Notes under the pieces: model-generated
What the model was told of the DNA's origin: nothing
Seen by the model: only the letters and a program-made list of their open reading frames with translations
Databases searched by the model: none
Shown: in pieces, positions 2,158-57,673 of the stretch
Numbering within the stretch: the stretch's first letter is position 1
Layout of the letters: every line of letters begins with the position of its first letter
Translations under genes and position numbers: made by a program
Assembly (NCBI GenBank): GCA_023262855.1
Contig: JALQYQ010000026.1
Span: forward strand, 1-64,000
Source: Crocinitomicaceae bacterium
GTDB taxonomy: Bacteria > Bacteroidota > Bacteroidia > Flavobacteriales_D > Crocinitomicaceae
Direction of reading: 5' to 3'
DNA: 64,000 bases

Positions 2158-3471
2158 TTACGGAAAGATAATACCTCTAAACAAAGTAGCATCTACCGTT
2201 GGTATATTTGATTTGTATTTTGCATTGATTGCCTTAATAAATTCATTCGCTAAAAGCGCATTTCCACGTGGATTTAAATTCACACCATCCAACGAATAAG
2301 CACCTCCTGAAACAAATTTTGTATTCAAAGAAATTCCATTGTAAAGAATCCCAGATGTTAATGATTGATAAAACTGATCTGTTCTAACCACCGCAAGGTT
2401 CTTTTCAGCTGCTTTTGCAATGATGTAATCATTATAAAGGGCGGTATTGCTTTTAATCGCATTTACCTCATCCGTTGTTAGAATGAATTCATCTCGGAAC
2501 GGAAAAACTGAACCCATTTTATTGCATTTCACTGAATCCAATGGAACACTTAACAAGATTTTTTCACCTGGAACCATTTGTCGAACGCCGAATGTGCCTG
2601 CACTTGGATCCTCAATCACAAAGGCATTTTTTCCAACGACAAACGATAAACCAATTGGGTTGTAAATGGCATTTAAGCTCGCAGCATTGGCTTCATCCAA
2701 ATTCAAACCATCATACGGAATGGTGGTAAAATAAGGCATTTCTGTTACATCCGGCAAAGTTGAAACAATTCCTTGAGTACTAGCCGAAGTCACTTGATCT
2801 AGAATCGGTGTGTACAAGGCATGAAATTGTGAAGCCGTCAATAAACTTTCGTTTTTTCCACCTGACTTCGCATATTTCATAACCTCATCCAATCCAACAT
2901 ATAAAGAGAAAAAACTAGGTGTTGTGTTCAATGCATCTCCAAGAACCGTTGCACTTGTAGATGATGCCATGCGCTTGAAAAAGTTATTTTGACTTGAATA
3001 AGCTGGACTAAACGCATAAGCCATGTAAAAACCTGGAATTCCATAATTTCCAAAAGGCTTAGATGCATCGTACAAGGATTCTGAAAAAATAGTTGCATCC
3101 CCATTTATCGCTTTTCGCACAGGAGAAAGACTTGTTACGTTCAAACAATCTGTTTTATAATCCAATATTAAGCGCGCCAAATTATCCGAATTCACACCAA
3201 CTGAAGAAGTCGAAACCCAAGGTTGATGAAACGTTCCTCCTCCCACTAGTTCAAACTGTTGTGCTAGAATTGCACCCAATGAGTTTTCTTGGCCTTCAAG
3301 GTACAACGCGTCATCCATAAACCCACTAGTGGTTGTTCCACCAATTGCCACGAAATTTGACAAATTCAAATCACCCGCAGAATATTCTTTTACGTTTTCT
3401 TTTGGTTTACAGGCTGAAAGCATTACAAACGCTACAGAAAATAGAGTCAATTTTGTTCGATTGAATTTCAT
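2158..3471 (-). CDS. SGNH/GDSL-like outer-membrane lipoprotein, probably inactive as a hydrolase
   Basis: A 437-residue lipoprotein with lipobox LSAC (C21). It resembles the Bacteroidota SGNH/GDSL family usually encoded beside a FadL-like porin, as here with a 5-bp gap. Block I reads FVAIGGTTTSGF where relatives have GNSLTAGF-type sequence, placing T46 where the nucleophilic Ser is expected. The C-terminal block reads LDGVNLNPRGNALLANEF, so the D-x-x-H pair becomes D395-x-x-N398. Two catalytic positions therefore appear substituted. This suggests a binding protein or pseudoenzyme serving the neighbouring porin. Family assignment is from motif spacing only. Confidence 0.75.
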   Translation of the reverse strand: MKFNRTKLTLFSVAFVMLSACKPKENVKEYSAGDLNLSNFVAIGGTTTSGFMDDALYLEGQENSLGAILAQQFELVGGGTFHQPWVSTSSVGVNSDNLARLILDYKTDCLNVTSLSPVRKAINGDATIFSESLYDASKPFGNYGIPGFYMAYAFSPAYSSQNNFFKRMASSTSATVLGDALNTTPSFFSLYVGLDEVMKYAKSGGKNESLLTASQFHALYTPILDQVTSASTQGIVSTLPDVTEMPYFTTIPYDGLNLDEANAASLNAIYNPIGLSFVVGKNAFVIEDPSAGTFGVRQMVPGEKILLSVPLDSVKCNKMGSVFPFRDEFILTTDEVNAIKSNTALYNDYIIAKAAEKNLAVVRTDQFYQSLTSGILYNGISLNTKFVSGGAYSLDGVNLNPRGNALLANEFIKAINAKYKSNIPTVDATLFRGIIFP

Positions 3472-3476
3472 AGCTT

Positions 3477-4700
3477 TTAAAATTTGTAGATGATTGCTAA
3501 TCCGGGAGCAATAACGTTCGTAGTAAACGTTCCGCTTAAATTTGTTTCGAGATTGGTATCCGTTCGTTTCAAGTGTGTAAAAAAGATCGATGCATCCAAT
3601 TGGAAATGCTCACCCATTTTATAACCCAAACCAGCGGTATAATTTACGCGATTTGCGTCTGGCGTTTCCGGCGTAACGTATCCACTTTGAACAGGTGTAA
3701 TTCCATACGCTAAACCAATTCGTGCATCCCAATTTGTTGAAATTGAATAATTTGTTCCGAAACGAAAGGCAAATGTATTTTTATAATTCCGTGCAGATTT
3801 TGTGTCAACGAGGGAAGTTGTATTTTGCGCATAATCAAATGACAGGGTGTCATATGCTTTCCAACCAACATAATTCACATCGAGTGCAAAAGCCCATTTT
3901 TCATTCAGCTTATATGCCAATCCAAGTGTTGCAACTTGTGGAAGAGGCAATGCTGATGAGAAGGTTCCATTTGGAAAATTAGTTGCTAGTGAACTCGGGA
4001 CAGTAAAAGTCGCTGTTCCTTCTGCCACAGCCATGTTTACTTGAGAGCGGTATGAAACTCCAAGGTTTAATTTTTCAGTTGCTTGAACAAAAAGTCCCAC
4101 ATTGAATCCAAATCCGCTTGCTTTTCCATTCAATTCAGCATGACCATAGGTTCCATTAGCATCTTGAACAGGAATGTCTTTTTGCAGGTTCACATTTCCA
4201 GTTGAATAGACAAATCCAGCACCAAATCCAATTTTATCATTTAGTTTATAACTAATCGTTGGTTGAAAAAAGATGGATTTCAATTGCAATTTTGTCAAAG
4301 CAAAACGACCTGTCCACCCGTCTTCATATTGAATGGTACTTCCAAAGGGTGTGTAAATACCCAAACCATAGAAAAATTTACTGTTTTCATTTTTTCTGTA
4401 AACCGCATAAGCTGAAAATGGCGTTCCCATTGGTGAATTCGTGCGACCAATTGATGTTGTGTTGGCATCTTCAAAAAGTGTGTTGGCAAATGTTGGCGTA
4501 AAAGCAATATTTACACTGTTTTCTTTTAAAAAAGCAACACTTCCAGGATTAAAAAATACACTTGCGGCATCCAGGGGTAAGGCATTTCCTGCACCACCCA
4601 TACCTTGTTGTTTTTGTCCTTGAAAATTCACTTGAAAACCTTGAGAAAACAAACTGTTCGTCACAAGAAAGACAGTTCCAAGTAGTAATAATTTATGCAT
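3477..4700 (-). CDS. OmpP1/FadL/TodX-family outer-membrane transporter
   Basis: A beta-barrel porin of 407 residues from the ATG at 4698-4700. An upstream ATG at 4763 in the same frame would add 21 residues before the signal peptide and is unlikely. The signal peptide is MHKLLLLGTVFLVTNSLFSQ. The mature N-terminus GFQVNFQGQKQQGMGGAGNA matches the FadL family plug region, and the chain ends in aromatic strand residues (AIIYKF) typical of barrels. The family imports long-chain fatty acids or other hydrophobic compounds. It is the first gene of the unit with the SGNH lipoprotein, esterase and tspO, so hydrophobic-compound uptake and hydrolysis is a plausible joint role. Confidence 0.9.
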   Translation of the reverse strand: MHKLLLLGTVFLVTNSLFSQGFQVNFQGQKQQGMGGAGNALPLDAASVFFNPGSVAFLKENSVNIAFTPTFANTLFEDANTTSIGRTNSPMGTPFSAYAVYRKNENSKFFYGLGIYTPFGSTIQYEDGWTGRFALTKLQLKSIFFQPTISYKLNDKIGFGAGFVYSTGNVNLQKDIPVQDANGTYGHAELNGKASGFGFNVGLFVQATEKLNLGVSYRSQVNMAVAEGTATFTVPSSLATNFPNGTFSSALPLPQVATLGLAYKLNEKWAFALDVNYVGWKAYDTLSFDYAQNTTSLVDTKSARNYKNTFAFRFGTNYSISTNWDARIGLAYGITPVQSGYVTPETPDANRVNYTAGLGYKMGEHFQLDASIFFTHLKRTDTNLETNLSGTFTTNVIAPGLAIIYKF

Positions 4701-50025: not shown

Positions 50026-50053
50026 AAAAAGGTATTAGTTTGTAACCCTTTTT
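50026..50053 (-). terminator. Weak terminator after rnr
   Basis: AAAAAGG/CCTTTTT arms (50047-50053 with 50026-50032) overlap the rnr stop codon; the stem is AT-rich with only two G-C pairs. Confidence 0.45.
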
Positions 50054-52187
50054 AATCCACCACCAACTCTAAATCGATCTGGCGTTTGCGTGGATGAACT
50101 TCATAAATGCGGACACGAACCTTGTCTCCAAAGTTGTATTCTTTCTTCGTTTTCCCACCAATGATGCGGTATTTTTCGGCATCGAAATAGAAGCGATCAC
50201 CAGGAATCTCATTCATTGGAACCATGCCTTCGCAATAGTTTTCGTCCATTTTCACAAACAAACCAAACTCCGCAATTCCAGAAACAGTTCCTGTGAATTC
50301 TTCACCGATGTGATCTTGTACAAACAAGGTTTGGAAGTATTTAGTCGATTCACGTTCTGCCTCAACAGCTTTACGTTCCATGCGTGAAATACGTTTACAC
50401 ACATCGTCCAATTCTTTTCCGTAACGGTGTTTTTTATGCGTTAATTCTTCTTGTAAAATGCGGTGAACAACTAAATCTGCATAGCGACGAATTGGAGACG
50501 TAAAATGCGTGTAGAAATCAAATGCTAAACCGTAGTGACCAATGTTCGTTGTTTCATACGTTGCTTTTGCCATGGAACGAATCGCCATGGTTTGAATCAA
50601 TGAATACTCATTTTTTAAACGAATATCATCCAACAAACGATTAATACTTCCAGCAATTTGATCGGGTGTAGTGAAGTCTAATTTATATCCAAATTTATCG
50701 ATAAAGACATTGAACAACGCAATTTTCGCAACATCTGGTTTATCATGCACTCGGAAAACAAAAGGAACAGGATCTCTTCCTTTTTTCGGTTCAGCAACAA
50801 ACATCGCCACTTTTTTGTTCGCCAATAACATGAACTCTTCAATCAACTTGTGTGCGTCTTTTGATGTCTTAATAATCACTTCTGATGGGTGACCAGTTTC
50901 ATCCAATTTGAAACGCATTTCTTCTGATTCAATACTCAACGCTCCGTGTTTTAAGCGCGCTTTTCGCAAAATTTTAGCGATTTTATCGAGAATAAGAATT
51001 TCTTCTTTGAAATCTCCATCTTTTCCTTCAATGATTTCTTGCGCTTCTTCATAGCTAAAACGACGATCTGAATGGATCACAGTTTTTCCAAACCATTGGT
51101 TGTACACCTTTCCGTTTTCATCCATTTCAAAGACGGCAGAGAAACTAAATTTGTCTTCATTCGGACGCAAAGAACACGCCATGTTCGATAATTGTTCTGG
51201 CAACATGGGAACAACGCGATCAACAAGGTAAACAGAATTTGAACGCTTCAATGCTTCTTTATCCATTGCACTTCCAGGTCGCACGTAATAACTTACATCG
51301 GCAATGTGAACACCAATTTCAATGTTTCCATTTTCCAAACGTTTAAACGACAAAGCATCATCAAAATCGCGTGCATCAACAGGGTCAATTGTGAAGGTTG
51401 TTATATTTCTAAAGTCGCGACGTGTTTTCACTTCTTCAGGATCTAAATCCAATCCAATAACTTCTGCTTCGGCTAAAACTTCTTGCGGGAATTTGTAATC
51501 GATTCCTTGGTTGCATAAAATGCTAATCATTTCAACATCGTTTGAACCAGGTTTACCTAAAACCTCAACAACTTCACCGTATGGATTTTTAGAAGATTTT
51601 GGCCAAACCGTTATTTTCACCAAGGCTTTGTCACCTTGTTTTGCGCCGTTTAATTTTTCTTTTGCAATGTAAATATCTGTTCCAGCTTTCGCATTATCAG
51701 GTACCAAAAACGCAAATTTTTCATGCATTTCAATGGTTCCAACGAATTGCGTTCGCTCACGATTCAATACGTCAATCACTTCACCTTCATTACGCGATTG
51801 ACCTCGTTTGAAAATGTGAACACGCACACGATCACCGTTTAAAGCTTGTCCAACATTTTGCGGCGCAATGTAAATATCTGCTTGTTCATCGTCTGTAATC
51901 ACAAATCCAGCACCACGCGCCGTCAACTCGATGTTTCCTTCAACCGAACTGCGCGATACGCCTTTTGTGTAAACACCATGTGAAGCACGTTGCAATAAAT
52001 TTTGCTTTACCAAATCCTCCAAAATGTCATAAACCAATTTACGAAGCGCATTTTCACGCACATCAATCAATGCACACACTTGTTTGTGAGAAAGCACACT
52101 TTCTGGATTTTTATCAAACACTTTGCGAACCACATGCGCGAGGCTGTGCTTCATTTTAGAGGATTTATTTTGCTTCTTTTTTGACAT
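50052..52187 (-). CDS. rnr: Ribonuclease R
   Basis: A 711-residue exoribonuclease of the RNase II/R family from the ATG at 52185-52187. An upstream ATG at 52271 would add 28 non-family residues. Order: lysine-rich N-terminus, winged-helix domain (LAHVVRKVFDKNPESVLSH), two cold-shock domains, the RNB catalytic domain (FTIDPVDARDFDDALSF with the metal-binding Asp set, and HFTSPIRRYADLVVHR), and a C-terminal S1 domain (GEEFTGTVSGIAEFGLFVKM). It degrades structured RNA 3' to 5'. A TAACTTCG box sits 5 bases before the ATG. Confidence 0.96.
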   Translation of the reverse strand: MSKKKQNKSSKMKHSLAHVVRKVFDKNPESVLSHKQVCALIDVRENALRKLVYDILEDLVKQNLLQRASHGVYTKGVSRSSVEGNIELTARGAGFVITDDEQADIYIAPQNVGQALNGDRVRVHIFKRGQSRNEGEVIDVLNRERTQFVGTIEMHEKFAFLVPDNAKAGTDIYIAKEKLNGAKQGDKALVKITVWPKSSKNPYGEVVEVLGKPGSNDVEMISILCNQGIDYKFPQEVLAEAEVIGLDLDPEEVKTRRDFRNITTFTIDPVDARDFDDALSFKRLENGNIEIGVHIADVSYYVRPGSAMDKEALKRSNSVYLVDRVVPMLPEQLSNMACSLRPNEDKFSFSAVFEMDENGKVYNQWFGKTVIHSDRRFSYEEAQEIIEGKDGDFKEEILILDKIAKILRKARLKHGALSIESEEMRFKLDETGHPSEVIIKTSKDAHKLIEEFMLLANKKVAMFVAEPKKGRDPVPFVFRVHDKPDVAKIALFNVFIDKFGYKLDFTTPDQIAGSINRLLDDIRLKNEYSLIQTMAIRSMAKATYETTNIGHYGLAFDFYTHFTSPIRRYADLVVHRILQEELTHKKHRYGKELDDVCKRISRMERKAVEAERESTKYFQTLFVQDHIGEEFTGTVSGIAEFGLFVKMDENYCEGMVPMNEIPGDRFYFDAEKYRIIGGKTKKEYNFGDKVRVRIYEVHPRKRQIDLELVVD

Positions 52188-52293
52188 ATATGCGAAGTTA
52201 GTGGTATTTTGTATGCGAAACACGGGAAAAAACACATATTCAAAACGATTGAAAGATTCTTCCCGATTCATAGGACAATAAAAGGAAGAATGA

Positions 52294-52317: not shown

Positions 52318-52842
52318 ATGAATACACGCGTTGAACAAGCATTGAATGATCAAATCGAAAAAGAAGCATCTTCTTCTCAATTTTATTTAGCAATGGCCTC
52401 TTGGGCTGAAAACAATGGAATGAATGGTACAGCGAAGTTCATGTACCAGCATTCAGACGAGGAGCGTTTTCACATGTTGAAATTGGTGAAATTTGTCAAT
52501 GAGCGTGGAGGAAAAGCGGTTATTCCAGCGATTTCAATGCCACCAAAAGAATTCAACGATTTGACAAATGTATTTGAATTGTTGTTGAACCATGAAATTA
52601 TGGTAACTGAAAGCATCAATAATTTGGTGGATATTTGTTTACAAGAAAAAGATTACACAACACATAACTTTATTCAATGGTATGTTTCTGAGCAATTGGA
52701 AGAAGAAGCATTGGCTCGTACAGTGTTGGATAAACTAAAATTAATTGGTGGCGATAAAGGTGGAATGTACATGTTTGACCGCGACCTAGAAAATTCAGCA
52801 ATTGCGGCAGCTCCAGCGAATGGAGGAACAGGTGCAATGTAA
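52318..52842 (+). CDS. ftnA: Non-heme ferritin
   Basis: A 174-residue ferritin with the expected four-helix bundle. Ferroxidase ligands seen are E16, E49 and H52, with later Glu residues in NHEIMVTESI and EQLEEEA. It stores iron as a 24-mer. The receptor-cyclase gene follows after 29 bp with no terminator, so the two may be co-transcribed. Confidence 0.95.
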   Translation: MNTRVEQALNDQIEKEASSSQFYLAMASWAENNGMNGTAKFMYQHSDEERFHMLKLVKFVNERGGKAVIPAISMPPKEFNDLTNVFELLLNHEIMVTESINNLVDICLQEKDYTTHNFIQWYVSEQLEEEALARTVLDKLKLIGGDKGGMYMFDRDLENSAIAAAPANGGTGAM

Positions 52843-52871: not shown

Positions 52872-55800
52872 ATGAAACTAGTTTTAAGTGGTTTGCTGTC
52901 ACTTTGTGTGTTGACTGTTTTTAGTCAAACAGCTTACCGCTTTCAAAACTATTCGATCAATGATGGACTTTCCCAAAGTTCGGTTACAAGCATTATTCAA
53001 GACAACAATCACGCATTGTGGATTGGTACCCAAGATGGACTGAATCGTTTTGATGGCCGAACATTTGAAATTTTCACATCAGACGATACCAAAGGACTGG
53101 AAAGTGAATACATCAAATGTTCAGTAAAAACCAAAGACGGAAAACTGTGGTTTGGTACAACAAATGGTTTAACCCTTTTTAATCCAAGCACTGAAACCTT
53201 TAAAACGTATTCGCAAGATCAAAAAACAGCCTTACAAATCGAGAGTATCACTTTGGATCAATCCGAAATATTGTGGATAGGAACGAGTGGTAAAGGGTTG
53301 CTTAGTTTCAATCGAACAACAGAAAAATTCAAAGATAATTCGGCCTTAATTCCAACGAAGAAAATTCAATCCGTTTTTTGCACGAATGAAGGAAGGTTAT
53401 TTGTAAATACGGAAGACAAAGGTTTGTTTTTGGTGAATGAGTCGCGTACATCGGCGTCAAAAATTGAAATTAAAAGTAAAAACGAGAACCCGGTTATTAT
53501 TCAACGAATCGTTCAAATGTCGCATTACAGTGTGCTTTTTGGAACGAATCAAGGTGTTTTTGAATATGACTTAAATTTGAACAAAACTCAACCGAAATTT
53601 CCAAATTTGGATAAGGAATTCGGCTACATGGGAATTTCTGATATTTATTTATCCGATAACAATACTTGGTTTTTAGGTTCCACCAATAAAGGCTTGTTCA
53701 CGATTACAAACAGTGGAGCAATCTTTAACAGCACGCAAGATATCTTTCAGAAAAATGCCCTTTTGTTTAATGACATCAATTCCTTGTTTGTCGATGAATC
53801 AGGAACTTTTTGGGTGGGAACAGATCGTGGTTTGGCAAGTTTCAACCCTAACAATCAAGGATTTTTAGGTGTTGGACCGAGTGGAAACCTTGAAAAAGGA
53901 ATTCCTTCCTCGAATGTGTGGTCGTTTGCTGAAGATCAAAAGGCAAATTATGTCTTTGTTGGAACCGATCTTGGAATTTCTCGATTCAACAGAAAAACTG
54001 GAAAATTCGAACAATTTTACCGCGATAATTCTCAGTCAATAACAGGAGAAAGCGCCGAAACAGCTGTATTATCCATGATTGTTATTTCTGAAAATCATGT
54101 TTTAGTTGGATGCGTCGACGGTTTGTTTGATTTAACCATCACAGGTAAAAATCAATATACATTCAAGCGCATAAATTTTCTGAGTGATGAAGACGCAATC
54201 AAACATGTGCGTATCTATTCAATGGTGCATTGGAAGGATGAAAAATACTTCTTGGGAACGAAGGCTGGAGCGGTTTTAGTTGATTTAAAAGCAAAAAAAG
54301 CACAAGCTTTTGAACACAGTTTTAAGCAAGCTGCAACAACAATTACTGCTGGTATTTGCCGCAATGTGTATAAGGACAAATACGATCGTATTTGGTTCGC
54401 AACAAGCACAGGGGAAATGAATCAGCTGGTTGACAAAAATGGTGTTTTATCAATCGTTCCTTACAAATACAATTCTATTTTATTAAAAAATTCAAAGGAC
54501 TATATCACATCAATTTTACAAACAAGTAAACACGAGTTTTGGTTTGGTACCTTGGGTTCGGGATTGATGTACTGGAATGAGGCAACCAAAAAAGTAAAAG
54601 TTTACACTAAAAAAGATGGGCTTCCAAATAACGTTGTTTATTGCGTAATTCAAGATCAGAGCAAAAACCTATGGATGAGTACCAACAAAGGAATTTGTTG
54701 TTTTAATCCAACAACTAAGCTGGTTACCAATTATACAGAAACAGATGGTTTAATGAGCAATGAGTTTAATCTTGGAGCTTACATGTTTTCACATACAGGT
54801 GAATTGTTCTTTGGAGGAATTTACGGTTACAACTTCTTTAATCCACGTAAAATGGGATTAAACAAAACGGATGTAAGCGTAAAAATCACAAAATTTAAGT
54901 TTGACAAAGGTTGGCTACATCCAAATGAATCAGGCTCTCCATTTGTTCGACCAATTTCTGAAACAGACAACATTACACTTAGCTATCGTCAACGAAGTTT
55001 TACGATTCGATTTCAACCTTCCGATTTGAGTAACCCTGAATTGTTGAACTACAAATATATTCTTGAAGGCTCTGATGAAGGAGAAATTTTAATTGGAAAT
55101 AGCAACGAAATTCACTTCAATGCACTTTCACCAGGTCATTATACCTTAAAGATTTATGCGAGAATCGGTGATGGTCCTTGGGGTAACACACCAGCGGTTT
55201 TAGAAATTCACATTAAATCTCCTTTCTGGGGAACTTGGTGGTTCTGGTTGATTGTTGCCGTTATTTTGGCAATCGCAGTTCGCATATTTATTCGTTCAAA
55301 AATTGAATCAGGACGAAGAGAGCAAGTGCGTCTGGAAATGAAAATCACCGAAAGAACACGTGAAATTCGTGCACAAAATGTGAAGATTGAAAATCAACGA
55401 AAATTATTAGAAGAAGAAAAAAACAAGGTTGTAGAACAACAACGCTTATTGCAAATTGAGAAAGATAAAACGGAGAAATTACTGCGAAATGTAATGCCTG
55501 AATCTACCGCGGAAGAGTTGAAGAAAACGGGGACAGCAAGTGCACGCGCATACAAAACTGTTTCGGTTCTTTTCACCGACTTTGTTGGTTTTACAAAAAT
55601 CGCTGAACACATGAGCCCAACTGAATTGGTAAGTAAGCTCGATGTGTATTTTAGAAAGTTTGATGAGATAATTGTAAACAACAACCTCGAAAAAATTAAA
55701 ACGATTGGTGATGCCTACATGTGTGCTGGAGGAGTTCCTGTGCGAAATAATACCAATCCGATTGATACATGTCTTGCAGCCTTGCAGATTCAAGATTACA

Positions 55801-56777
55801 TGCGTAAGCACAAAAATGAGGCAATCATCAACCATACTGATTATTGGGAATTGCGTTTAGGTATCAATACGGGTGAAGTTACCGCGGGTGTTATTGGTAG
55901 TGAACGATTAGCGTTTGACGTTTGGGGAGCAACAGTGAATCATGCACAGCGCATGGAAATGTTGGGCGAACCAGGTAAAGTTACAATCACTGGAAGCACG
56001 TTTAAGCACATTGAACCTTATTTTGAATGCGTGTTCAGAGGAAAAGCCCAAACGAAAAGTCGTGGCTTGTTGGACATGTATACTGTGGAGCGCATTAAAC
56101 CTGAATTATCTGTTGATGGGGAAGGTGTTTATCCAAATGATCGTTTCCACCAAATTGTAAATTTGCATCATTATAGTTCGATCAATTACTACAAGGCAGA
56201 ACGTCACATAATAAAAGTTCTGGAAAAAGGATTGTCTGATAAATTACATTATCACAGTATTGAGCATACAAAAGATGTTGTAAAAGCAGTTGAGCGTTTA
56301 GCATTAATGGAAGGAGTAACGGATGAAGGATTGTTCCTGTTAAAGTCTGCAGCAACCTATCACGATGCTGGATTTGTTGAACAATACGAAAAAAATGAAC
56401 CAATTGGTGCGCGTTTAGCGGAAGAAATCCTACCAAAATATGGTTATACAGAACAACACATTGAGAAGATTAAGGAGTTGATTTATGTGACCCAAATTCC
56501 ACACAAACCGAAAAACAACTTAGAAGAAATTATTTGTGATGCTGATTTAGATTACTTGGGCCGAGATGATTTTCACGAAATAGCAGACCGTTTGAGAAGA
56601 GAACTTCGTGAACATGGTAAGATTGATTCAGATCGCAAATGGGATGAGTTACAAGTAAGTTTTTTAACCGCACACAGATACTTTACTGAAACAGCAATTC
56701 GTACACGTAAAGACAAGAAATTGAAGAATCTTGAAGAGATTAAATTACGTTTAGAGAAAGACGATTACAAGGATTAA
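52872..56777 (+). CDS. Propeller-receptor adenylate cyclase fused to an HD phosphohydrolase domain
   Basis: A 1301-residue protein. Order: signal peptide (1-19); two-component-regulator propeller repeats (about 25-680, units such as LWIGTQDGLNRFD); Y_Y_Y domain (about 700-780); one membrane helix (about 788-808); coiled coil (about 820-880); class III cyclase; HD domain (about 1110-1290). The cyclase has both metal Asp (D903, D947), the adenine-selecting pair K943 and D1016, and transition-state N1023 and R1027, so adenylate cyclase activity is predicted. The HD set is H1128/H1132, H1164-D1165 and D1223/D1225. A periplasmic ligand would thus control cyclic-nucleotide synthesis, and perhaps turnover, in one chain. 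Confidence 0.9.
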   Translation: MKLVLSGLLSLCVLTVFSQTAYRFQNYSINDGLSQSSVTSIIQDNNHALWIGTQDGLNRFDGRTFEIFTSDDTKGLESEYIKCSVKTKDGKLWFGTTNGLTLFNPSTETFKTYSQDQKTALQIESITLDQSEILWIGTSGKGLLSFNRTTEKFKDNSALIPTKKIQSVFCTNEGRLFVNTEDKGLFLVNESRTSASKIEIKSKNENPVIIQRIVQMSHYSVLFGTNQGVFEYDLNLNKTQPKFPNLDKEFGYMGISDIYLSDNNTWFLGSTNKGLFTITNSGAIFNSTQDIFQKNALLFNDINSLFVDESGTFWVGTDRGLASFNPNNQGFLGVGPSGNLEKGIPSSNVWSFAEDQKANYVFVGTDLGISRFNRKTGKFEQFYRDNSQSITGESAETAVLSMIVISENHVLVGCVDGLFDLTITGKNQYTFKRINFLSDEDAIKHVRIYSMVHWKDEKYFLGTKAGAVLVDLKAKKAQAFEHSFKQAATTITAGICRNVYKDKYDRIWFATSTGEMNQLVDKNGVLSIVPYKYNSILLKNSKDYITSILQTSKHEFWFGTLGSGLMYWNEATKKVKVYTKKDGLPNNVVYCVIQDQSKNLWMSTNKGICCFNPTTKLVTNYTETDGLMSNEFNLGAYMFSHTGELFFGGIYGYNFFNPRKMGLNKTDVSVKITKFKFDKGWLHPNESGSPFVRPISETDNITLSYRQRSFTIRFQPSDLSNPELLNYKYILEGSDEGEILIGNSNEIHFNALSPGHYTLKIYARIGDGPWGNTPAVLEIHIKSPFWGTWWFWLIVAVILAIAVRIFIRSKIESGRREQVRLEMKITERTREIRAQNVKIENQRKLLEEEKNKVVEQQRLLQIEKDKTEKLLRNVMPESTAEELKKTGTASARAYKTVSVLFTDFVGFTKIAEHMSPTELVSKLDVYFRKFDEIIVNNNLEKIKTIGDAYMCAGGVPVRNNTNPIDTCLAALQIQDYMRKHKNEAIINHTDYWELRLGINTGEVTAGVIGSERLAFDVWGATVNHAQRMEMLGEPGKVTITGSTFKHIEPYFECVFRGKAQTKSRGLLDMYTVERIKPELSVDGEGVYPNDRFHQIVNLHHYSSINYYKAERHIIKVLEKGLSDKLHYHSIEHTKDVVKAVERLALMEGVTDEGLFLLKSAATYHDAGFVEQYEKNEPIGARLAEEILPKYGYTEQHIEKIKELIYVTQIPHKPKNNLEEIICDADLDYLGRDDFHEIADRLRRELREHGKIDSDRKWDELQVSFLTAHRYFTETAIRTRKDKKLKNLEEIKLRLEKDDYKD

Positions 56778-56848: not shown

Positions 56849-57673
56849 TTAACTAAATAAAATACTTTGTCCGTATGGATTTAAGTCAACAGGATTTACA
56901 ACCAATGCTGGAATTTTCGCATCATTTGTGATGATGTATTGCTCATAATTAGCAGTAATTGTTCCTAAGAAATTACTTCTGTTCAAATTCATGATTGCAA
57001 TTAAATCCGCATCGATGTTCACAGCATGTTTCACAACTTCTTTGTCAAATCCACTTGATGGAGCTAATGTTGCAGTAACTTCAATTCCACGATCAGAGAA
57101 GAATTTTTTCGCAAATTGAATATTCGCTTGAACTTGGTGACGTAAAAACTCATCTGTTTCATCTGGAGTAATTACATGCACACGAGATTTAAAGTAGGTA
57201 GCTAAATTTGCAACAATCGCCAATTTTTGCTTTGTCTCTTTATGTAAATCCATTGGTACAACGATATCGTCGTATCCACTTTCTTTAATTCCTTTTTCTT
57301 GAACGATAATGAAAGGAACACTTGAACTTGTAATTACTTTTAACGCATGACTACCTGTTATGTGTTGCCATCCGTGTGCGCCGTGCGTTCCCATGAAAAT
57401 TAATTCTGCATGGTGTTCAGCAGCAAATTCACCAATATCTTCAAAAATGCTTCCCATTCTTACAGAAGGTACTAAATCTACTCCTGAACTACTGTAATTA
57501 GCAAGAATAGTCGTTAATTTTTCTTCCGCTTCTTTGATGCTTTTTTCTTTTGAAACTACGTGTAAAACAAACACTTGAGCATTCAATGGTTTTGCAGTAG
57601 CAATAGCGTGTTCCAACGCGATATCCGCAACTGGCGTGAAATCGTGGGGTACAATAAAGTTTTTTCTGTTCAT
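56849..57673 (-). CDS. Tandem universal stress protein
   Basis: A 274-residue cytoplasmic protein with two Usp domains. The first (1-145) starts NFIVPHDFTPVADIALEHAI and ends with the G-T-H-G-A-H-G-W and S-H-A-L-K-V motif of ATP-binding Usp proteins. The second (about 150-274) is less conserved at the nucleotide loop. Function is general stress; the ligand is unknown. A TACATTTG core lies 34 bases upstream. Confidence 0.88.
   Translation of the reverse strand: MNRKNFIVPHDFTPVADIALEHAIATAKPLNAQVFVLHVVSKEKSIKEAEEKLTTILANYSSSGVDLVPSVRMGSIFEDIGEFAAEHHAELIFMGTHGAHGWQHITGSHALKVITSSSVPFIIVQEKGIKESGYDDIVVPMDLHKETKQKLAIVANLATYFKSRVHVITPDETDEFLRHQVQANIQFAKKFFSDRGIEVTATLAPSSGFDKEVVKHAVNIDADLIAIMNLNRSNFLGTITANYEQYIITNDAKIPALVVNPVDLNPYGQSILFS

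Follow-up and report, generated by a model that had tools for sequence, protein, structure and literature searches.

Reg_prop hybrid two-component sensors (4a2l) possess an ectodomain in which a Reg_prop propeller and a Y_Y_Y domain are joined to a transmembrane segment. The CAPE proteins of Marchantia and other streptophytes unite a class III adenylyl cyclase with a class I-type phosphodiesterase (PDE) on a single polypeptide, as excerpts of two papers report (PMC5159850, PMC8115329), and the combination of the two activities in one chain is therefore possible. The latter source, in its excerpted part, assigns class I PDEs to vertebrates and a diversity of eukaryotes, and class III PDEs to bacteria (PMC8115329), and in an excerpt of another paper the four Bacteroidetes genomes sequenced by 2005 are said to be devoid of adenylate cyclases (PMC1183210). 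PycTM is described, in an excerpt of PMC11224242, as an effector of Pycsar defence that is switched on by cyclic pyrimidines. Here we analyse a gene from a stretch of 64,000 nucleotides of a Crocinitomicaceae bacterium (assembly GCA_023262855.1, contig JALQYQ010000026.1, positions 1 to 64,000 of the forward strand), which is called the window throughout. The gene (52872-56777, + strand) is a single open reading frame of 1301 residues with an ATG start, and the protein that it encodes probably unites a receptor adenylate cyclase and a cyclic AMP (cAMP) phosphodiesterase in one chain, as judged from sequence comparisons and structural models.

Architecture and spread of the receptor

The chain is divided as follows (E, expectation value):

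52872..52928, +, signal peptide, residues ~1-19 (hydrophobic N-terminus in a hydropathy scan; cleavage site placed by eye)
52929..54971, +, periplasmic Reg_prop propeller, residues ~20-700 (PF07494, E 7e-28; structures 4a2l, E 1e-87, and 3v9f, E 5e-63)
55029..55217, +, Y_Y_Y domain, residues 720-782 (PF07495, E 1.8e-12)
55233..55301, +, single transmembrane helix, residues ~788-810 (hydropathy maximum 2.4)
55302..55511, +, signalling coiled coil, residues ~811-880 (one 62-residue helix in the AlphaFold2 model)
55542..56090, +, class III cyclase domain, residues 891-1073 (PF00211, E 6e-44; catalytic residues)
56115..56774, +, HD phosphohydrolase domain, residues 1082-1301 (homology, conservation and structure)

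Pfam and the hydropathy scan bear out the signal peptide, propeller, Y_Y_Y domain and lone membrane helix that a sequence-only reading of this DNA had proposed, the segment at 55233..55301 being the sole strong hydrophobic stretch beyond the signal peptide. The AlphaFold2 model of the coiled coil, cyclase and HD domain has a predicted local distance difference test score (pLDDT) of 90.5 and a predicted template modelling score (pTM) of 0.79. Unlike the Reg_prop hybrid sensors, whose propeller, Y_Y_Y domain and transmembrane segment it shares, the chain has no Pfam match to a histidine kinase or response regulator anywhere in its 1301 residues, and its output consists of the cyclase and HD domains.

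The Guanylate_cyc profile matches the cyclase domain with 150 bits against a cut-off of 21.9. Class III cyclases use two metal-binding Asp residues, a substrate-binding Lys/Asp pair and a transition-state Asn/Arg pair. These roles agree with an alignment to the mammalian AC9/AC5 motifs, with which D903, K943, D947, D1016, N1023 and R1027 line up, all six at the positions that had been claimed for them from the sequence; the substrate pair K943/D1016 is of the adenine type. The six residues are mostly kept across 109 cyclase domains, with one gap, which lies in a cut frame. The presence of a receptor, an adenylate-type cyclase and an intact HD domain on one chain is thus supported at the sequence level.

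The same genome encodes a paralogue of 565 residues with the order receiver-cyclase-HD (L003:1033-2730; G000:C13), located between genes that we take to be ispH and a cobalamin adenosyltransferase gene. The phospho-acceptor Asp of its receiver seems by eye to be Asn, and the domain may be a pseudo-receiver. The genome also has a third class III cyclase (L001:1489-2520, 343 residues), which presumably combines a receiver-type domain with a cyclase and adjoins a presumed UspA-like gene (2755-3537), as the window receptor does.

When 60 genomes were searched, 35 (the window's own counted) contained a frame of 1261-1377 residues spanning the cyclase and HD domains, one of them with an internal stop. 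Named genomes were scanned with the closer alignment A2, A1 being too divergent, and the best 80 of 513 loci, which represent the closer forms, comprised 60 with the order propeller-cyclase-HD (52 complete, 8 cut), 15 with cyclase-HD and 5 with the HD domain only. The figure of 60 is a lower bound, because Pfam recognises Reg_prop or Y_Y_Y in L211 and L213, which belong to the 15 cyclase-HD loci without a detected propeller. Among the named hosts are Brumimicrobium salinarum, B. aurantiacum, Fluviicola and numerous metagenome-assembled genomes of Crocinitomicaceae or Flavobacteriales; the cyclase-HD pair also occurs in other proteins, combined with TPR (L201) or with kinase, AAA and GAF parts (L279). 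Mean identity to the window protein over 71 homologues is 41.5% in the propeller, 52.6% in the Y_Y_Y domain, 70.0% in the cyclase and 73.0% in the HD domain; the last is hence the most conserved domain of the receptor, followed by the cyclase, and its high identity indicates that it is no vestige. The sequence-only reading had considered that the domain order might be common and already characterised: it is common in Flavobacteriales rather than a one-off, and, as to the second part, the titles, abstracts and excerpts among the matches listed from the open-licence literature contain no description of the receptor, of its HD family or of fusions between this HD domain and PycTM (HD-PycTM). The excerpts of PMC12072042, PMC1183210 and PMC9293780 likewise hold nothing on the window protein.

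The HD domain and its likeness to cyclic-nucleotide phosphodiesterases

The residues of the HD domain considered below are Y1127, H1128, H1132, H1164, D1165, E1176, T1207, D1223, D1225, Q1261 and F1264. H1128, H1132, the pair H1164-D1165, E1176, D1223 and D1225 are unchanged in 86/86 aligned relatives, and a larger set of 209 HD sequences shows one exception each at H1132, H1164, E1176 and D1225. The AlphaFold2 model of the domain, built on an alignment of 48 relatives, has a mean pLDDT of 93.5 and a pTM of 0.88. The H...HD...D set that the earlier reading had called intact is confirmed by these relatives and by the model, in which the metal ligands lie in an all-helical domain, as is characteristic of the HD superfamily.

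Structural comparison of this model with VIA-align points to the cyclic-nucleotide phosphodiesterases. The 50 rows listed are all class I PDEs (Z 16.7-17.9, with about 200 of the 220 residues aligned), including PDE10A, 7A, 2A, 5A, 6C and RhoPDE; 48 of the 50 are so named by their titles, and 5vp0 and 5vp1 are presumably PDE2A. The best alignment reaches a Z of up to 17.9 with a root-mean-square deviation of 2.8 over 198 residues, that is, a class I fold as modelled. The sequence contains motifs reminiscent of PDEs, namely YHxxxHxxDV, HD, T, ADL and QVxF; among the PDE motifs compared, the counterpart of YHxxxHxxDV alone is seen in the profile A3 alignment. Class I PDEs possess an invariant purine-binding Gln in a QxxF motif, and Q1261-V-S-F1264, a candidate counterpart by sequence, sits in a C-terminal helix of the window HD domain. 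The earlier idea of a self-limiting signal gains support from a fold near that of the cyclic-nucleotide PDEs and from an HD domain as conserved as the cyclase.

A mechanism can be proposed on this basis. Binding of a ligand to the Reg_prop/Y_Y_Y ectodomain in the periplasm would alter the packing of a putative homodimer, and the signal would reach the class III domains by way of the single transmembrane helix and the coiled coil. These domains would pair and convert ATP to what is probably cAMP. The HD domain of the same chain, presumably metal-dependent and with a class I PDE-like fold, may hydrolyse cAMP locally, and the net output would be set by whichever activity, synthesis or hydrolysis, the sensor favours. 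Proteins of the CRP/FNR type would be likely readers of the net cAMP level; the cNMP-binding profile PF00027 has five matches in the genome, four of them above cut-off.

Relatives of the HD domain and rival readings

When the window HD domain was used as a single query against 2557 open reading frames of fetched loci, it matched the HD domains of Bacteroidota HD-PycTM proteins, whose PycTM profile (PF18967) takes its name from the Pycsar effector, with E values from 1e-34 to 1e-18. The match gives substance to the loose likeness to Pycsar-type HD domains noted from the sequence. In these proteins a homologous HD domain is combined with effector helices where the window chain has a cyclase, and it mostly has Asn1261, His1228 and His1175, as against Gln, Tyr and mostly Asn in the cyclase-fused versions.

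Co-occurrence was assessed in 395 Bacteroidota genomes (three samples with coinciding handles, treated as the same 395), shared ancestry being ignored in all these counts. Matches of E 1.7e-44 or better were taken as strong, and 34 others (E 6e-19 or worse) were dropped. An HD-PycTM fusion was recognized by a PycTM frame of at least 370 residues among the matches listed; fusions are possibly undercounted, and five genomes of family f35 (G101, G177, G363, G379 and G394) were excluded from the fusion set, their HD match being weak or absent. A strong HD match was present in 127/395 genomes, and all except two of these (125/127) also have PF00211 or PycTM. Among genomes with a strong HD match and without PycTM, PF00211 is found in 30/32, versus 205/395 overall. 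The association between the fusion and the cyclase was not significant (p 0.066), which speaks against a cyclase link.

Gene neighbourhoods were inspected in 40 loci hand-picked for an HD gene that is unfused or has an unusual fusion partner, 13 of which contain a separate cyclase gene and four a separate PycTM gene. The HD gene is preceded by two cyclase genes in L270 and by one in L271. L286:4153-5610 encodes a protein of ~486 residues that joins an HD domain of the family to a membrane protein of the YitT type with DUF2179, and the neighbouring gene encodes a receiver-cyclase; in L284:3879-5339 an HD protein of about that length adjoins a cyclase gene. Two loci (L274:5024-8355 and L275:2277-5603) have a divergent cyclase, PycTM and a stand-alone HD in one same-strand run. 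PF00211 matches the N-terminal part of the cyclase (E 3e-10 in L274, where FlgO-like and TPR parts are also present), and both cyclases show Gln in place of the substrate Lys, with the Asp retained. By gene order and sequence, these runs resemble a Pycsar-like operon to which an HD hydrolase has been added. Against a general operon link between HD and cyclase stand the 20 loci L113-L132, with solo HD and HD-PycTM genes, in which a single-sequence, less sensitive search detected no cyclase gene; in L129 that search missed the HD domain itself as well.

In nine loci (L248-L250, L255, L258, L259, L265, L266 and L269) a solo HD gene is followed by a gene of 164-168 residues, which in L255, the sole one of the nine scanned, encodes a histidine phosphatase (PF00300).

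The 209 HD sequences, a set biased to cyclase fusions (114/209), separate by residue and partner. Residue 1261 is Gln in 111/114 cyclase-fused and Asn in 37/43 PycTM-fused members, and residue 1228 is Tyr in 114/114 of the former and His in 42/43 of the latter. A tree of 118 rows, obtained by a quick method with the outgroup L006 on a very long branch and excluded from the residue counts, has a supported branch (97) of 58 rows that contains all 35 cyclase-fused members kept; Gln1261 occurs in 57/58 and Tyr1228 in 58/58 rows of this branch, and Gln1261 in 0/59 rows outside it, PycTM-linked members included. A test for independence of these residues from the partner yielded a single independent pair on supported branches, with no difference at either residue, and the tie between residue and partner is a clade correlation rather than repeated evolution, because it goes back to a single split in the tree. 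Cyclases encoded near HD genes were also compared: seven near HD domains of the cyclase arm have Lys+Thr (five) or Lys+Asp (two), and in the three near HD domains outside it (L261, L274 and L275) the Lys is replaced by Gln or His. The Lys+Thr pair is that of class IIIb cyclases. Tentatively, and with more doubt than assent, the family might be viewed as a bacterial branch, so far unrecognised, of cyclic mononucleotide hydrolases that resemble PDEs. Of its two arms, the adenine one (Gln1261/Tyr1228) would be fused to adenylate cyclases or encoded next to them; the other, with His1228 and mostly Asn, Ser or Thr at 1261, would be fused to PycTM or encoded next to it, and would degrade the activating nucleotide as a Pycsar-type off switch.

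Several observations weigh against reading the HD domain of the receptor as a cAMP phosphodiesterase. 1) Neither the window protein nor its HD domain has a Pfam match to PF01966 or PF00233. The class I PDE signature is HDx2Hx4N, and it is absent from the window HD, which reads HDAGF. 2) In the PDB, profile A1 ranks generic HD hydrolases first (2pq7, E 3e-10; YedJ, E 4e-7), PDEs appearing only from E 0.019, and the best values of other sequence searches against solved PDEs (E 0.064 and 0.24) are equally non-significant. 3) The top Foldseek match, and the sole one under E 0.001, is again 2pq7 (E 2.7e-4). 4) The PDB is rich in PDEs, which fill the VIA-align rows and leave the Z scores of other HD families out of view. 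5) Among the matches listed, 33/85 genomes with HD-PycTM are without a PF00211 cyclase. 6) In the 109 cyclase domains R1027 is replaced in six, D1016 by Glu in three and D903 by Asn in two, and some relatives may therefore be weak cyclases or use another substrate.

NCBIfam assigns the window HD no family at E 0.1, PHROGs matches it to the phage families of generic phosphohydrolases phrog_16069 (E 2e-10) and phrog_19425 (E 2e-9), the HD domain of the same-genome paralogue reaches PF01966 at E 2e-6, and that paralogue aside the genome yields one distant HD protein only (E 1e-4). Profile A3 matches 2pq7 at E 6.5e-4, with PDEs making up 16 of the 20 matches listed at non-significant values (E 0.24-0.76), and Foldseek ranks 2-17 are occupied by the catalytic domains of human PDE5 and PDE4 (E 2e-3 or higher). 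PF00233 exceeds its cut-off in 0/296 Bacteroidota genomes; by comparison of coordinates at least 14 of the 33 weak matches listed, the best two included, belong to the window HD family, where they span just about the first quarter of the profile. As modelled, the domain resembles a class I PDE yet falls outside that family as defined, because it lacks both the PF00233 profile and the HDx2Hx4N signature, and a class I PDE-like fold by itself shows no function.

The foremost alternative is that the HD domain is a non-catalytic or near-inactive receiver, which would bind a cyclic nucleotide and feed back allosterically on the cyclase, and which in HD-PycTM would sense the ligand and thereby open the membrane effector. 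Its fusion to an output domain such as PycTM as well as to cyclases is what one would expect of a sensor module, and the 33 HD-PycTM genomes without PF00211 have no such cyclase whose product would need removal. Pure sensor domains often lose their metal ligands, whereas those of this family are unchanged in all 86 aligned relatives and show, in the larger set, the single exceptions at H1132, H1164 and D1225 given above; the solo HD genes that adjoin cyclase genes also look enzymatic. We regard this alternative as unlikely.

An improbable one is that the domain hydrolyses some other nucleotide, such as guanosine tetra- or pentaphosphate ((p)ppGpp), a nucleoside or deoxynucleoside triphosphate or a cyclic dinucleotide, so that cAMP synthesis would be coupled to removal of a second signal. 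The lead of 2pq7 and YedJ in profile A1, the ADP-bound YpgQ that Foldseek places near the PDEs (template modelling score 0.59) and the same 33 genomes favour it; the presence of a cyclase or PycTM in 125 of the 127 genomes with a strong HD match, and the occupation of the 50 structural rows listed by PDEs, do not. That the window chain is itself a Pycsar-type anti-phage cyclase, as its match to the PADLOC PycC profile (E 2e-12) and the homology of its HD domain to that of HD-PycTM might suggest, is rejected as very improbable, since the PycC match spans the general cyclase fold and reflects general homology, the adenine pair K943/D1016 contrasts with the Gln for Lys of the L274 and L275 cyclases, no PycTM or PycTIR effector lies beside the gene, and the neighbours (RNase R-like, ferritin and UspA-like genes) recur in many relatives, unlike a mobile defence setting. 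A receptor with a fused cAMP phosphodiesterase remains our preferred reading.

Ferritin, synteny and comparison with known systems

The genes that flank the receptor in the window are the following, the RNase R-like and UspA-like names being those we presume from sequence:

50052..52271, -, RNase R-like gene, conserved upstream neighbour, a synteny marker only
52318..52842, +, ferritin gene, 29 bp upstream of the receptor gene and probably co-transcribed (PF00210, E 1.3e-39; upstream in 38/75 loci)
56849..57673, -, UspA-like gene, conserved downstream neighbour, a synteny marker only

The ferritin gene lies on the same strand as the receptor and at the distance stated in the earlier reading. 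For the count over relatives, loci with the same first 150 residues in their HD match were counted once, and a locus was kept if its frame had at least 450 residues and at least 700 bp upstream, the rest being dropped; among the 75 so retained, the 38 with ferritin have it directly upstream on the same strand, with a gap within 61 bp in 35 of them. Three congeners (L089:7379-8932, L090:8131-9684 and L091:7934-9505) have, between RNase R and UspA, a sensorless receptor that has lost the entire sensor together with ferritin, and in which the transmembrane helix, coiled coil, cyclase and HD domain are intact. The two losses probably represent one deletion, since ferritin and sensor are contiguous. 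PF00210 is missing from two of the three genomes (G006 and G016), and the third (G025) has another copy elsewhere; it is also missing from G017 and the incomplete G001, both without the receptor in the 60-genome search. The synteny and joint loss fit a shared function, and equally linkage alone, so that the iron-linked input is suggestive only. The sensorless forms offer a natural test of constitutive output.

If the HD domain is indeed PDE-like, it would be a candidate cyclic-mononucleotide hydrolase in Bacteroidota and, possibly, a Pycsar-type off switch; in the latter role its second-arm versions would be comparable to the ring nucleases of type III CRISPR systems as built-in off switches, and phage-borne copies of such hydrolases could serve as anti-Pycsar proteins. 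The arrangement of synthase and hydrolase of one messenger on one chain under a sensor is shared with the GGDEF-EAL and GGDEF/HD-GYP proteins, in which the chemistry is that of cyclic di-GMP and the synthase belongs to another family. The CAPE proteins differ from the window chain in being eukaryotic and in having a true class I PDE at the N-terminus and the cyclase at the C-terminus, whereas the window chain has the reverse order, an HD domain outside PF00233 and a Reg_prop ectodomain. Should the preferred reading hold, the window protein would be a bacterial counterpart of plant CAPE, namely a receptor in which synthesis and breakdown of cAMP are combined on one chain.

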